In this document: one piece after another, positions 43,444 through 50,016 of the stretch
How the letters are laid out: each line of letters opens with the position of its first letter
Position numbering within the stretch: position 1 is the stretch's first letter
Origin: Sphingomonadales bacterium
GTDB taxonomy: Bacteria; Pseudomonadota; Alphaproteobacteria; Sphingomonadales; Sphingomonadaceae
Assembly: GCA_027490095.1 (NCBI GenBank)
Contig: JAIXYT010000007.1
Location: forward strand, 1 to 64,000
Direction of reading: 5' to 3'
DNA: 64,000 bases
Notes under the pieces: generated by a model
Database searches by the model: none
What the model was told of the DNA's origin: nothing
The model's input: only the letters and a program-made list of their open reading frames with translations
Program-made: the position numbers and the translations under genes

Positions 43444-44556
43444 ATGTCCCCAGAGGACGAGGGCGGATTGACCAGTACAGCGCGGATGGAAATCGCAAAC
43501 GGCTGTGACAAAGGCTTGGAAGATGAGATCCGAGACGTTCTCGGCCGTCTCGGAACCATCGCGGATCAGTTGGGGTCACGAGCTCCCGTAGCCCAGTATG
43601 AAGCGGATATCGGCGACCCGTGTGCAACGCGTCGGGGGACGTCCATCCAGAGCAGCACCGGCCCGCTGCCCCGATTCCTGGCTGTGCGTGATATCCTTCG
43701 GATCGCCTTCAACATCGAATCGCTGGTGCCGATCGGCACTGTACCGCGCCGGCAGGAACGAAGCTCACGCAGCCCGACCGACGACAATCTGGCGACCGCA
43801 CTGCCCTATGCGCCGACTCTGCTGGACGCCCTTCAGCTGATGGCCCGTTACGGCGATGCAGCGGTGCCCTGGTACCGGCGGGCCATCGTGAAGCAGGGGG
43901 ACCGGCTGGTCATCTCCTACTGGCCCACGGTTCCGATCGGCCGGATCGAGGCGCTCGCCACCGAAGTCGCAATGGGCACGATCCACCGGCTGGTCGAGAC
44001 CTTCGTCGGTCCGCGAGTGGAGGAGGCGCGGGTCGTGCTGTCGATGGCGCCCGTGTCCGGCGTCAGTGCAATGCGGGAGCGCTTTTCCTGCGCCGTCGAG
44101 GTGGGCGCCGGACCCAGCAGGATGATCCTACCGGCGGCCTGGAGCCGTGTACCCAGCCCCTATCACGACCCTGAGCTTTGGAAGCAGGGGGTGGCACGCT
44201 GCGATGCCGATATCGCGATGCTGGTGGAGGCACCGCTGGTGAGCCGGGTTCGGGCCCATATCGTGCAGGGCCTGGATGCGCGGCACCTGGTCACGATCGA
44301 GGAGACCGCCCGAGCGCTCAACATGTCCGCGCGCACGCTGGTGCGTTCACTTCAGCGGGAGGGATATACCCACCACAGGCTGCTCGACATGGAGCGGCGG
44401 CAGAAGGCGGAGCAGCTGCTGGCGGGCGGGCACCTGTCGCTCGGCCATGTGGCCGAGGCGCTGGCCTTCACGGACCAGTCGAGTTTTGGCCGGAAATGCC
44501 GCGACTGGTTCGGCACGAGCCCGCTGCGCCTGCGCCGCCAGCTTTCGCCGCGTTGA
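43444..44556 (+). CDS. AraC family transcriptional regulator
   Basis: C-terminal HTH: TARALNMSARTLVRSLQREGYTHHRLLDMERRQKAEQLL...VAEALAFTDQSSFGRKCRDWFGTSPLRLRRQ. Confidence 0.9.
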   Translation: MSPEDEGGLTSTARMEIANGCDKGLEDEIRDVLGRLGTIADQLGSRAPVAQYEADIGDPCATRRGTSIQSSTGPLPRFLAVRDILRIAFNIESLVPIGTVPRRQERSSRSPTDDNLATALPYAPTLLDALQLMARYGDAAVPWYRRAIVKQGDRLVISYWPTVPIGRIEALATEVAMGTIHRLVETFVGPRVEEARVVLSMAPVSGVSAMRERFSCAVEVGAGPSRMILPAAWSRVPSPYHDPELWKQGVARCDADIAMLVEAPLVSRVRAHIVQGLDARHLVTIEETARALNMSARTLVRSLQREGYTHHRLLDMERRQKAEQLLAGGHLSLGHVAEALAFTDQSSFGRKCRDWFGTSPLRLRRQLSPR

Positions 44557-44678: not shown

Positions 44679-45575
44679 ATGACAGATCAAGACGAAATGC
44701 CGGCTGCTGGCCCGGCCGCGGGATTGCGCCCGGTGGCCAGGCAGCTTGTGGCAGGCCTTGCCGTCGCGGCGCTTCTGCTTTCGTCGGTGTCGGCGCTGGC
44801 AAGCACCTTCACCGACCTGGAGGGCGTGCGCGCGTCCGCCGCCGAAAACACCATCATGCAGCGCGGCTATCACGCGCATCACAGCTCGCCGGCATCGAAT
44901 GGGCGCTACACCTATTGGTGGAACAACCTGTCCAAGAGCTGCATCCGCACATTTACCAGCGACGGTGTGATCGCGGCGACCAAGACTGTAAGCGGCGCCG
45001 ACTGCGGCTGGTACGGCGGGGCGACCAACAACAGCAGCAGCAATTCGGGCGGGAACAAGGACGCCGCGGCGGCAGCGGCGGTTGCAGCGGCCGCGCTGAT
45101 CGGGGTGGCTGCCCTGTCGCACAAGTCGCACCATCGCGAGGACCAGGAGTATCAGGAGCCGCAAGGCTATGGTGATTTCGAGATGGGCTACCGCGACGGT
45201 CTCTATAACCACAGCTTCGAGGGCCGCGGCCGCTCGGACGCCTATTCGCAGGGCTATCGGGCCGGCGTTCAGGAGCGTGACCAGCAGAGCAGCTATCGCC
45301 GCGGCAACGGCTATGCCGACAGCTCGGGCGGGCGCGGCTATGGCGGCGGCGCGCAGCCGGCGCAGTTCAACGACCTGGTCGGGGCCCGTGCCGGGGGCGT
45401 CGAGACCGAGCTCCAGTCACGCGGTTTCCGCAATGTGGACGGCTTCGAATCCGGCAGGACCGGAAAGGGCACCATCTGGTGGAACGGGCGCACGCGCCAG
45501 TGCCTCCAGATGATCACTGTGGACGGGCGGGCCGACAGCATCGAAGATATCCAGACCCATCAGTACTGCCGCTGA
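44679..45575 (+). CDS. Exported/membrane protein with two copies of an unnamed WWN/RQC two-Cys domain
   Basis: N-terminal TM; domain copies at aa 44-111 and 230-298; Ala-rich second TM-like segment between. Confidence 0.8.
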   Translation: MTDQDEMPAAGPAAGLRPVARQLVAGLAVAALLLSSVSALASTFTDLEGVRASAAENTIMQRGYHAHHSSPASNGRYTYWWNNLSKSCIRTFTSDGVIAATKTVSGADCGWYGGATNNSSSNSGGNKDAAAAAAVAAAALIGVAALSHKSHHREDQEYQEPQGYGDFEMGYRDGLYNHSFEGRGRSDAYSQGYRAGVQERDQQSSYRRGNGYADSSGGRGYGGGAQPAQFNDLVGARAGGVETELQSRGFRNVDGFESGRTGKGTIWWNGRTRQCLQMITVDGRADSIEDIQTHQYCR

Positions 45576-45598
45576 TTCGTACCGACAGGAGCCTTTCC

Positions 45599-46237
45599 AT
45601 GCACAGGATCTTCTTTGCAGCCGCCGCTGTCTCGGCGCTGCTCGTCGCCGTTCCGGCCGTGGCCCAGCAGGTCGTCCCCGTCACCTTCGCCAAGGGCAAG
45701 AGCTCGGCGACCCTGACCGGCAGCATCAAGGGCGACCAGGATCGCACCTACACGGTCGACGCCAAGGCCGGGCAGAAGATGACCGTGACCCTGAAGTCGA
45801 CCAAGGGTTCCGCGGAAATGAACATCTTCGCGCCGGGCAACGACACGGCGATCTCGCTGGGGGCGACCGATCCCTACAATGTCACCACGGTGCTGCCGGC
45901 GACAGGCCGCTATCGCGTGCAGGTCTATCAGATGCGTGCTGCGGCGCGGCGCGGCGAGGTTGCGAACTATACCCTCACCATCGGCATCACGGGCGCGGCA
46001 GGCGCCGCGAAGCCGGCGCCGGTGAAGCTGGATGATCTGCAGGGTGCGCGCGCGGCGGGTGCACTGGACGAGATGGAGCGGCGCGGGTTCCGCAATGTCG
46101 ACGGCTTCCAGTCGGGGGCAAACGGCTCGGGCACGGTCTGGTGGAACGGCGCCACCAGGCAATGCATGCAGCTGATCACGGTGGATGGGCGCATCGACAG
46201 CGTCACCGACATCAAGACCCATCCGAAGTGCCGGTGA
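45599..46237 (+). CDS. Exported protein: PPC-like beta-sandwich plus WWN/RQC domain
   Basis: Signal peptide; GDQDRTYTVDAKAGQKMTVTLKS...YRVQVYQMRAAARRGEVANYTLTIGI; C-terminal 69 aa about 65% identical (hand count) to upstream gene. Confidence 0.82.
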   Translation: MHRIFFAAAAVSALLVAVPAVAQQVVPVTFAKGKSSATLTGSIKGDQDRTYTVDAKAGQKMTVTLKSTKGSAEMNIFAPGNDTAISLGATDPYNVTTVLPATGRYRVQVYQMRAAARRGEVANYTLTIGITGAAGAAKPAPVKLDDLQGARAAGALDEMERRGFRNVDGFQSGANGSGTVWWNGATRQCMQLITVDGRIDSVTDIKTHPKCR

Positions 46238-46277
46238 GGGGCAGCTGTCGACCGCCCAGCATTGGAGGCTTGCCAGA

Positions 46278-47252
46278 ATGTCAGCACCCCTGAGCCGCAG
46301 GGCCCTCATCGGCATGGGCGTTGCAACGGTGTCGATACCGGCGCTCGGCCAGCAGGTGGTGAAGGCCATATCCGACCTGAAGCCCGGCGAGTTCACCTGG
46401 CACCCCGAGCGCTCGCCGGCGGGGCCGGTTGCGATCGTCGTTTCGGTCCCCGACCAGCGGGTCCATGTCTATCGCAACGGCATCCGGATCGGCGTCTCCA
46501 CCTGCTCCACCGGCAAGCCCGGGCACGAAACTCCGACGGGCGTCTTCACCATCCTGCAGAAGGACAAGGACCACCGCAGCTCCACCTACAACAATGCGCC
46601 GATGCCCAACATGAACCGGCTGACCTGGGACGGCGTCGCGCTGCATGCCGGCAAGCTGCCCGGCTATCCGGCGAGCCACGGCTGCGTGCGGCTTCCGATG
46701 GAATTCTCGGAGAAGCTGTTCGGGGTGACGCATGTGGGAACGCCCGTCATCGTGGCAGGCGCCCACACCGATCCTGTCGATGTCGTGCACCCGGGGTTGG
46801 TTCTGGGCAGCTATGCAACCAGCGAGTTCGAGACGGCTGAAGCTGCCCTCAAGGGCAAGGCCCTGCCCGAATGGAATGGGCAGCAGACCGCAACGTCGAT
46901 ACTTGTTTCGGGGGCGGACCAGCAGGCCGTCCTACTGGAAAACGGCCGGCAGATCGCCAGCGGCAGGATCGATCTTGCAGCGGACCGTCGGCTCGGCGAG
47001 CATGTGTTCGTGCTGATCGACACGCACGATGCCCAGCGCGGCCTGCTGTGGCACGGAATCGGCTATGCCGATGCGGCCGGCAAGCCGGTCGAGCCGCCCG
47101 AAGGCAGCATCCTCAGGTCCGTGGGGGCCGAGCCGGATTTCCGCCGCATGGTCCATGACCGGCTGCATCCGGGTGCCCTGTTGATCACCACGGCCTTGCC
47201 GCTCAGCCCCGACCAGCGGACCCAGGGCGGCTTCGTCATCATGACCGCCTGA
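46278..47252 (+). CDS. L,D-transpeptidase (YkuD) family protein
   Basis: LHAGKLPGYPASHGCVRLP catalytic motif; twin-Arg-like N-terminus SRRALIG. Confidence 0.93.
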   Translation: MSAPLSRRALIGMGVATVSIPALGQQVVKAISDLKPGEFTWHPERSPAGPVAIVVSVPDQRVHVYRNGIRIGVSTCSTGKPGHETPTGVFTILQKDKDHRSSTYNNAPMPNMNRLTWDGVALHAGKLPGYPASHGCVRLPMEFSEKLFGVTHVGTPVIVAGAHTDPVDVVHPGLVLGSYATSEFETAEAALKGKALPEWNGQQTATSILVSGADQQAVLLENGRQIASGRIDLAADRRLGEHVFVLIDTHDAQRGLLWHGIGYADAAGKPVEPPEGSILRSVGAEPDFRRMVHDRLHPGALLITTALPLSPDQRTQGGFVIMTA

Positions 47253-47273
47253 GCAACACACAGGGAGACAAGC

Positions 47274-47954
47274 ATGCCCATGCGAAACGGATCCGGAGCC
47301 GCCCTTGCCGCAGCCCTTCTGCTGGCGGCCTGCGGCCAGGGGAGCAAGGCGCCAGAGGCGGCCCAGACGACCGCTGCCGCCAAGCCAGCGGCAATCCCGA
47401 CAAGCCTTGCGCCCTTCGGCGAGGGCTGGCCCAAGGCCGGCGACCCCTGCCGCCGACTGGGCGAGAGCGCGGCCACCGCAAACTGGCTGGATGACAGCGC
47501 CGTGCTGGTCGGCTGCCCAACGGCCGAGGCAGCGGCTGCGCTGGGTGGGAAGACGGTTGCGACCGTCGAAGGCGTCACGGTCGTTTCCGTGCCGACCGGC
47601 GACGCCAATGCCGGCATGGTGATGACAGACGACGCCCGCGTCGAAGGAACGGACTTCAACGCGACGGCCGAACTGCCGTGCGCGACCGACGGCGGCGACA
47701 CCAAGCTGCGCTGCAAGGCGGGCGTGAAGCGCAAGTGGGGCGAGGACGGCACCACCATCGTCGAGGTGACGAGGCCCGATGGCGGCACGCGGTCGCTGTT
47801 CTTCCGGGGCACGGAAGCCTTCAGCGCCAGCAGCTCCGAGGCCGACGGCTCGGCGGCCTACGCGTTCAAGGCGGTTCGTTCGGGCGACGAGACGCGGATC
47901 AGCTTCGGGCCCGAGCGCTATGTTGTGCCCGATGTGTTCGTGGTGGGCGACTGA
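47274..47954 (+). CDS. Hypothetical lipoprotein
   Basis: Lipobox LLAAC; conserved-looking Cys pairs (GDPCRR...LVGCP, LPCATDGGDTKLRC). Confidence 0.8.
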   Translation: MPMRNGSGAALAAALLLAACGQGSKAPEAAQTTAAAKPAAIPTSLAPFGEGWPKAGDPCRRLGESAATANWLDDSAVLVGCPTAEAAAALGGKTVATVEGVTVVSVPTGDANAGMVMTDDARVEGTDFNATAELPCATDGGDTKLRCKAGVKRKWGEDGTTIVEVTRPDGGTRSLFFRGTEAFSASSSEADGSAAYAFKAVRSGDETRISFGPERYVVPDVFVVGD

Positions 47955-47982
47955 AGCGGTTGGCAGACGAAAGGACGATGCC

Positions 47983-50016
47983 GTGAATTCCCTGTTCATC
48001 CTCTCCAGCGCCATGGCTCTCGTGGCGCTGATGCCGGCCCCGGCGGCCGCTCAGAAAGCCGACATCGGCGCCTGGGGGGTCGATACCGCGACGCTTTCGA
48101 AGACGGTGCGCCCCAACGATGACTTCTATCGCTATATCAACGAGACATGGCTGAAGGGCGCGAAGATCCCGGCCGGGCTGCCGGGAACGGACAGCTTCAC
48201 CGAGGTGTTCCTGTCGACCGAGCAGCGCGTGGCCGGGATCATCAAGGAGGCGCGCGAAGGCAATGACGCGCCGGGAACCCCGGAGCAGCTGATCGCAGAT
48301 TTCCACCGCTCGCATTCGGACATGGCGAAGCGCAATGCGCTGGGCATCTCGCCGATCGCCAGCACGCTCGGCATCATCGGCGGCCTGAAAACGCGCGAAG
48401 AGCTTGCCCGCGCCATGGCCATGCCCTGGATGGACGGCATGATCTCCAGCGGCATCGGCGCGGATTCCAATGATCCCAAGCGCCAGATCGTCATTGTCGG
48501 CGGGTCGGGCACCTCCTTGCCGTCGCGCGACTATTATCTGAACACCGGAGAGCCCTATGAAGGCGTTCGCAAGGCGCTGAAGGCCTACATGGCCGACAGC
48601 TTCCGCCGGGCCGGCTTCCCGGATGCCGACGCCCGGGCCGAGCGCGTCTTCGCGCTGGAGATGGAGGCGGCGAAGCGGCAGTGGAGCCCGCTCGAGATGC
48701 GCGACGTGGTGCGCATGAACAATGTGATGACACCCGCTGAGCTGAAGGCCTATGCCCCCGGCTTTCCGTGGGACGCCTATTTCGCCGAGGCGGGCTACAC
48801 CGGCCAGCAGCGGGTGAAGGTGGTGACGGACACCGCCACGCGCGACATCGCGAAGCTGTTCGCCGACACGGCCGTAGAGGACATCCGTTCGCTTATGCTG
48901 TTCCGGACGCTCGATTTCTGGGCGCCCTATCTGTCGGAGCCCTGGGTGCAGGCGCATTTCGATTTCCACAACAAGACGCTGCAGGGCGCGACCCAGCGCC
49001 GCCCGGCCGAGCTGGAGACGGTCGCTGCCGTCAACGCCGTGCTGAGCGAGGAGATCGGGCGCATCTATGTCGCCGAATATTTCGGTGCGTCGGACCGCGC
49101 GAAGGTCGCCGAGATGGTGGACTATCTGCGGGCGACCTATCGCGAACGCATCGGCAAACTCGACTGGATGGACGAGCCGACCCGCAAGGAAGCGCTGACC
49201 AAGCTCGACCGGATCGCGAGCTATATCGGCTTTCCGGACCGCTGGCACGACCGCTCGAACGTGCGCATCGCGAGCGACGATCTGGTCGGGAACATGAACC
49301 GGCTGATCCAGTGGCAGAAGGCCGACAGCCTGAAGAGGCTGGCCGAGGGCACCCGCGACTGGGAGTTCGCCTATCCCCCGCAGGAGATCAACGCGGGCTA
49401 CAGCCCGGCGCGCAACTCGATCACCTTCCCGGCCGGAATCCTGCAGGCGCCCTTCTTTGATCCCAAGGCCGATGCCGCGGTCAACTTCGGCTCGATCGCG
49501 GCGGTGATCGGGCACGAGATCGGCCACGCCTTCGACGACCAGGGCAGCCGCTCTGACGGGGACGGCAAACTGCGCGACTGGTGGACGCCGAAATCCCGCG
49601 CGGAGTTCGACAAGCGAACCGCAGGCCTTGTCGAGCAGTTCAATCAATATGAGCCGCTGCCAGGCCTGAAGATCAACGGCAAGCAGAACCTGGGCGAAAA
49701 CATCGGCGACCTGGGCGGGCTGTCGGTGGCGCACGCGGCCTACCGGAAATATGTGGCCGACAAGCAGGGCGGCACGGCCCCAGTGCTCGATGGCTTCACC
49801 GGCGACCAGCGCTTCTTCCTCGCCTGGGGACAGCTGTGGCGCGAGCTGATCGCGGACGCCGAGCAACGCCGCCGGATCCTGTCGGACCCGCACAGCCCCG
49901 GCGAATTCCGCGCCAACGGCGTCGTGCGCAACGTGGACGCCTGGTACGAGGCCTTCGGCGTGAAGCCCGGCGACAAGCTCTACCTGCCGCCCGAAAAGCG
50001 GGTGACGATCTGGTAG
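47983..50016 (+). CDS. M13 family metallopeptidase (neprilysin-like)
   Basis: AVIGHEIGHAFDDQGS zinc motif, ENIGDLGGLSVAHAAY; signal peptide; GTG start inferred. Confidence 0.95.
   Translation: MNSLFILSSAMALVALMPAPAAAQKADIGAWGVDTATLSKTVRPNDDFYRYINETWLKGAKIPAGLPGTDSFTEVFLSTEQRVAGIIKEAREGNDAPGTPEQLIADFHRSHSDMAKRNALGISPIASTLGIIGGLKTREELARAMAMPWMDGMISSGIGADSNDPKRQIVIVGGSGTSLPSRDYYLNTGEPYEGVRKALKAYMADSFRRAGFPDADARAERVFALEMEAAKRQWSPLEMRDVVRMNNVMTPAELKAYAPGFPWDAYFAEAGYTGQQRVKVVTDTATRDIAKLFADTAVEDIRSLMLFRTLDFWAPYLSEPWVQAHFDFHNKTLQGATQRRPAELETVAAVNAVLSEEIGRIYVAEYFGASDRAKVAEMVDYLRATYRERIGKLDWMDEPTRKEALTKLDRIASYIGFPDRWHDRSNVRIASDDLVGNMNRLIQWQKADSLKRLAEGTRDWEFAYPPQEINAGYSPARNSITFPAGILQAPFFDPKADAAVNFGSIAAVIGHEIGHAFDDQGSRSDGDGKLRDWWTPKSRAEFDKRTAGLVEQFNQYEPLPGLKINGKQNLGENIGDLGGLSVAHAAYRKYVADKQGGTAPVLDGFTGDQRFFLAWGQLWRELIADAEQRRRILSDPHSPGEFRANGVVRNVDAWYEAFGVKPGDKLYLPPEKRVTIW

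Follow-up and report, generated by a model that had tools for sequence, protein, structure and literature searches.

The window, that is, the whole stretch of 64,000 nucleotides that was analysed, encodes three copies of a two-cysteine domain. The domain is a true family of 65–69 residues; it is uncatalogued, is predicted to be periplasmic, and occurs in about a fifth of the sampled Sphingomonadales genomes. It is specifically associated with PliG, the inhibitor of g-type lysozyme, and working with PliG is the lead on its function. The evidence best supports a periplasmic task that the domain shares with PliG, namely the protection or control of peptidoglycan cleavage.

Gene cluster of the window

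The three copies lie in the first two genes of a five-gene cluster (Table 1), and the initial annotation, which had placed them in two adjacent exported proteins, gave all of them at the right coordinates and strand. The order of elements in gene 1 was signal peptide, copy 1, Ala-rich segment, GYxxG helices and copy 2, with a His/Lys-rich stretch (SHKSHHRED) after the Ala-rich segment. By inspection, the proteins of genes 1 and 2 both had signal-peptide-like starts, the export signal of gene 2 being MHRIFFAAAAVSALLVAVPAVAQ. Gene 2 was separated from gene 1 by 23 bp and had an AGGAG ribosome-binding-like site immediately 5'. The L,D-transpeptidase, lipoprotein and M13 peptidase genes came after genes 1 and 2 on the same strand with gaps of about 20–40 bases, and genes 1–5 look like one transcription unit; a promoter and terminator scan of the cluster gave chance-level matches only. 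Homologues of the AraC-family regulator were located close to a domain gene in seven other loci.

The helix pair between the two domains of gene 1 (GYxDGLYN...SDAYSxGYxAGVxER) had invariant Gly, Tyr and Asp columns in alignment A2 and had no Pfam family. Over 18 residues it weakly resembled ribosome modulation factor (E 0.019), probably by chance.

Table 1. Features of the cluster (44,679–50,016) and of the gene upstream of it, in window coordinates
Feature	Position	Strand	Basis or remark
AraC-family transcription regulator, upstream of the cluster	43444..44556	+	Pfam HTH_18 2.6e-15, Arabinose_bd 2.7e-11
Gene 1, exported two-domain protein, 298 aa	44679..45575	+	Architecture common to ~40 homologues
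Domain copy 1, N-type (gene 1 residues 44-111; Cys codons 44940, 45003)	44808..45011	+	
Ala-rich hydrophobic segment of gene 1, KDAAAAAAVAAAALIGVAAL	45057..45116	+	Mean hydropathy 2.15 over 19 residues
Gene 1 helix pair, conserved GYRDGLYN...SDAYSQGYRAGVQER repeat	45159..45299	+	Two predicted helices, residues 161-175 and 187-207
Domain copy 2, C-type (gene 1 residues 230-298; Cys codons 45501, 45567)	45366..45572	+	
Gene 2, exported PliG-domain fusion protein, 212 aa	45599..46237	+	Signal-peptide-like start, PliG homology
PliG domain of gene 2, residues 25-130	45671..45988	+	phmmer against solved PliG structures
Domain copy 3, C-type, fused to PliG (gene 2 residues 144-212; Cys codons 46163, 46229)	46028..46234	+	
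Gene 3, exported L,D-transpeptidase (YkuD)	46278..47252	+	Pfam YkuD 9e-24; NCBIfam PRK06132 subfamily
Gene 4, lipoprotein, LLAAC lipobox	47274..47954	+	Homologue adjoins domain gene in ~16 loci
Gene 5, exported M13-family metallopeptidase, PepO-like	47983..50016	+	Pfam M13_N 4.4e-92, M13 5.5e-66

The domain family and its predicted fold

Copies 2 and 3 were identical at 45 of 69 positions (tblastn E 1.6e-29), the same count as had been obtained by hand. Copy 1, which had been called degenerate, matched copy 2 with an E value of 1.6e-6 (33% identity) and the family profile with an E value of 1.7e-20, so its likeness is real and not due to chance. Searching the 3.15-Mb genome of the window gave these three clear copies only; two further matches at E 0.3–0.4 were noise. 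Beyond the locus, the domain recurred, with 107 non-redundant copies in total.

Every one of the 107 copies had two Cys, neither more nor fewer, and their positions were the same throughout. Both Cys and one Gly (of an RG pair) were invariant across these rows, which were picked by a profile that includes the same Gly and Cys positions. The proposed signature of WWN plus two Cys thus stood for the Cys but was not universal for WWN: the first W was nearly fixed in N-type copies and often Q in C-type copies, which often had Q or Y at one of the WWN positions. Since the two Cys are fixed and the host proteins carry signal peptides or lipoboxes, a disulfide in the periplasm is the natural inference from these sequences, which lends indirect support to the bond suggested earlier.

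With one copy as query, a search of 151 genomes of the family gave homologues of the domain in 27. Alignment searches found them in at least 55 of 301 genomes of the order, at least 2 of 289 of the class, counting that of the window, and at least 9 of 299 of the phylum; these three counts are lower bounds, because only ~20 candidates per genome were scored. The domain was mainly found in Sphingomonadales and was rare elsewhere in Proteobacteria; two plasmid records, of Sphingomonas paeninsulae and Plesiomonas shigelloides, also carried it.

At least six architectures were found. The commonest was that of gene 1 (domain, Ala-rich hydrophobic stretch, GYxxG helices, domain). Others were the domain with a C-terminal 'YRLNGLNKP' region; the domain with a YsaB-like C-terminal region (sub-threshold, E 5e-4); short lipoproteins with the domain at the end, in other alphaproteobacterial families; domain, hydrophobic stretch, GYxxG and DUF3011 (3.8e-18), in another class; three-copy proteins; and PliG followed by the domain, as in gene 2. 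In L105, L115, L100 and others, the C-terminal region LIPPIHSRGDxGWWDL...YRLNGLNKPR...IDRRSGRI, which had no Pfam family, occurred alone (L105, 5381–5914) or fused to the domain.

The phylogenetic tree separated the N-type and single copies from the C-type copies with support of 100/100, the sole exception being a divergent protein (L115). N-type and C-type copies are two deep, cleanly separate lineages, and most copies follow them stably within one conserved two-domain protein. Of the earlier description as a mobile module, 'module' is apt because the domain is combined with different partners; 'mobile' applies only in part, as the scattered copies in other classes and the two plasmid records were the only signs of horizontal mobility.

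The three copies had no Pfam or NCBIfam model above cut-off, in agreement with the earlier statement that no named family could be assigned, and no convincing Pfam match was found for 41 diverse members. Scans of Pfam, NCBIfam, PHROGs and PADLOC gave sub-threshold matches only, mostly unrelated to one another. Among solved structures, a search with one sequence gave no match, and a search with the domain profile gave chance-level matches only, such as conkunitzins. The viral structure library gave many weak, uninformative matches to uncharacterised phage proteins. No publication on the domain turned up in a literature search.

AlphaFold modelling of the domain with 41 sequences gave a confident prediction (pLDDT 95, pTM 0.80) of a short helix, a long helix and four antiparallel strands. 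The model of full gene 1 had the same fold and the same four-strand order in both domains; the Ala-rich segment and the rest of the linker were of low confidence, except for the two helices. Foldseek against 350,542 PDB chains placed the beta-lactamase inhibitory protein BLIP (3e2k) first, weakly, both for the single domain (E 0.098, prob 0.97) and for the whole gene 1 protein (E 0.047); the structural match had a TM of 0.52, and no Foldseek E value was below 0.001. The BLIP repeat consists of a short helix, a loop and a long helix followed by four antiparallel strands (PMC2954215), and BLIP, PepSY and OmlA proteins have been described as members of a single periplasmic superfamily that probably serves in inhibition or binding (PMC2954215; PMC10653890). 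However, alpha-beta4 is a simple fold at 69 residues, one that chance or convergence may produce. The 41 members had no Pfam match to BLIP, PepSY, BamE or DUF2874, and hhalign of the domain profile against a local BamE profile gave a probability of 0.4%. As the Foldseek E values were weak and the BamE profile test failed, likeness and not membership is stated: in its predicted form the domain resembles those of the BLIP superfamily.

Association with PliG

Residues 25–130 of gene 2 are a PliG homologue, predicted from sequence to be a periplasmic g-type lysozyme inhibitor. Phmmer matched this domain over its full length to 4dzg (E 3.3e-20; 6–113 of the 114 residues of 4dzg_A), 4dy3 (4.5e-13) and 4dy5 (2.7e-11), the last of which is a Gifsy-1 prophage protein. 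The initial annotation had described this part as a PPC-like beta-sandwich, and the Pfam PPC model was just under its cut-off; the present result corrects this annotation, which masks the lysozyme-inhibitor homology. PliG binds g-type lysozyme tightly and helps E. coli to survive in the haemolymph of mussels (PMC10609593).

Fusions of PliG with the domain were found in four genomes (window, L120, L121 and L116) and contained C-type copies only. A single origin of the four fusions was rejected at a modest p-AU of 0.029 over 67 columns, and the fusion probably arose more than once.

The domain-carrying genomes contained 18 PliG places. Four were fused to the domain (window, G143, G266, G297), six were within ~2.5 kb of it (G001, the second copy of G143, G331, G370, G532, G741), one was at 6 kb (G346) and seven were elsewhere. 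Fused or near places thus made up 10/18 against ~0.05 expected (P ~2e-21, under a rough uniform null that ignores genome relatedness). These ten places spanned seven genera and three families, and some of the six nearby genes belonged to genomes outside the order. As controls, MliC was near the domain at 0/17 places and BamE at 0/29. Among the 301 genomes of the order, 11 of the 55 with the domain also had PliG, against 6 of the 246 without it (Fisher P 1.6e-5, shared ancestry ignored). The association of PliG with the domain is specific, and a link to MliC was rejected. About 70% of the domain-carrying genomes had no detectable PliG; therefore, the domain must also work without it.

Other neighbours recurred as well. 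YkuD was a close neighbour of the domain in 6 of 41 genomes against ~0.5 expected (~10x), and domain genes of six genera and of one plasmid had an L,D-transpeptidase next to them. In L008 and L099, and by eye also in L122, PliG was joined to the C-terminal part of the gene 4 lipoprotein, and this lipoprotein may be a further member of the same protection set.

In one genome outside the class (L118, G741), DUF3011 took the place of the second domain and a PliG gene was directly adjacent, so DUF3011 shares the lysozyme-inhibitor context. PliG-like domains were seen in tandem in L123 (G532), with an SH3-like segment between them, and after an unnamed two-Cys region in L124 (G866); both lay near lipoprotein-like proteins ending in the two-Cys domain.

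Proposed function and comparison with known systems

The recurrent fusion and adjacency with PliG suggest a role in cell wall protection. Our preferred reading, held tentatively and at somewhat less than an even chance, is that the domain is a disulfide-locked periplasmic protein-binding module acting with PliG in peptidoglycan protection. It would be part of a set of genes for cell-wall protection, with PliG at the centre. Gene 2 would use its PliG head to block a peptidoglycan-cleaving enzyme similar to g-type lysozyme, and the two-Cys domain fused to this head would supply another binding head, directed at that enzyme or at a different one that acts on the wall. Gene 1 would present two binding heads on one exported protein, tethered by its Ala-rich hydrophobic segment. 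Binding of a protein through a face of the beta-sheet is the most likely mode of action. The association with PliG is shown by computation; inhibition, rather than anchoring, is our inference for the outcome.

Anchoring or targeting is a possible but fairly unlikely alternative, in which the domain would hold PliG, lipoproteins and other partners at the peptidoglycan or outer membrane and have no inhibitory activity of its own. The many unrelated partners (PliG, DUF3011, two uncharacterised C-terminal regions and lipoproteins ending in the domain) are consistent with it, since binding modules typically show a promiscuous partner range, as are the co-occurring Ala-rich hydrophobic stretch and the adjoining L,D-transpeptidase and conserved lipoprotein. 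However, the domain had no Pfam likeness to known peptidoglycan-binding domains, and a second anchor would be redundant in the lipoprotein forms because these already carry a lipid anchor.

A bolder form of the protection reading is unlikely as a whole. Here the domain would itself inhibit peptidoglycan-cleaving enzymes, as a new class of protein inhibitor built on a BLIP-like scaffold, and the cluster would be a two-headed anti-lysozyme locus of PliG and a second inhibitor together with a wall-hardening L,D-transpeptidase. If the domain does inhibit a wall-cleaving enzyme, it would found a new inhibitor family, and free-living alphaproteobacteria would be stacking lysozyme inhibitors on single proteins.

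We consider it rather improbable that the domain acts as a regulator of endogenous wall enzymes (L,D-transpeptidases, PBPs, lytic enzymes), with PliG directed against the cell's own lytic enzymes and not foreign lysozyme. This could be argued by analogy to PepSY-domain proteins, which in other bacteria bind PBPs or lytic enzymes; for TseB and CopD, which have the PepSY/BLIP fold, an interaction with PBPs is described (PMC10653890). The L,D-transpeptidase neighbours and the frequency of the domain where PliG is absent also point this way, but YkuD adjacency was confined to 6 of 41 genomes and the PliG link was stronger.

It is very improbable that the domain is a divergent member of a known family, BamE (SmpA/OmlA) or PASTA. 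The helix-plus-sheet layout resembles BamE, but a true BamE (PF04355) was encoded separately elsewhere in 25 of 25 genomes, and PF04355 did not match the domain. As for PASTA, the profile search matched PknB PASTA repeats (best E 0.077) over the first 20 residues, which are similar (DLxGxxxxxAxxxLxxRGF). The likeness ended there, however: the domain had no Pfam PASTA match, and its model has helices first and then four strands, without the N-terminal strand ahead of the helix that the strand-helix-strand-strand order of PASTA needs.

MliC (PF09864), a further lysozyme inhibitor that is common in proteobacteria, resembles PliG in its general role and was carried by 16 of the same 53 genomes, but it belongs to another Pfam family and was never near the domain. 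The BLIP superfamily (PepSY, SmpA_OmlA/BamE, DUF2874) shares with the domain the helix and strand elements that are predicted for it, a periplasmic location and the frequent occurrence of two copies per protein. It differs in having no detectable sequence relation to the domain, and the gene 1 copies are ~120 residues apart, whereas those of BLIP are packed in tandem. The gene 2 half is homologous to PliG (4dzg, 4dy3, 4dxz, 4dy5), is likewise exported, and retains both Arg of the QxRxxAR stretch in the alignment. In contrast to the solved PliG chains, which are single-domain proteins of 111–114 aa, gene 2 adds the C-terminal two-Cys domain, and its PliG sits in a cluster with a wall enzyme.
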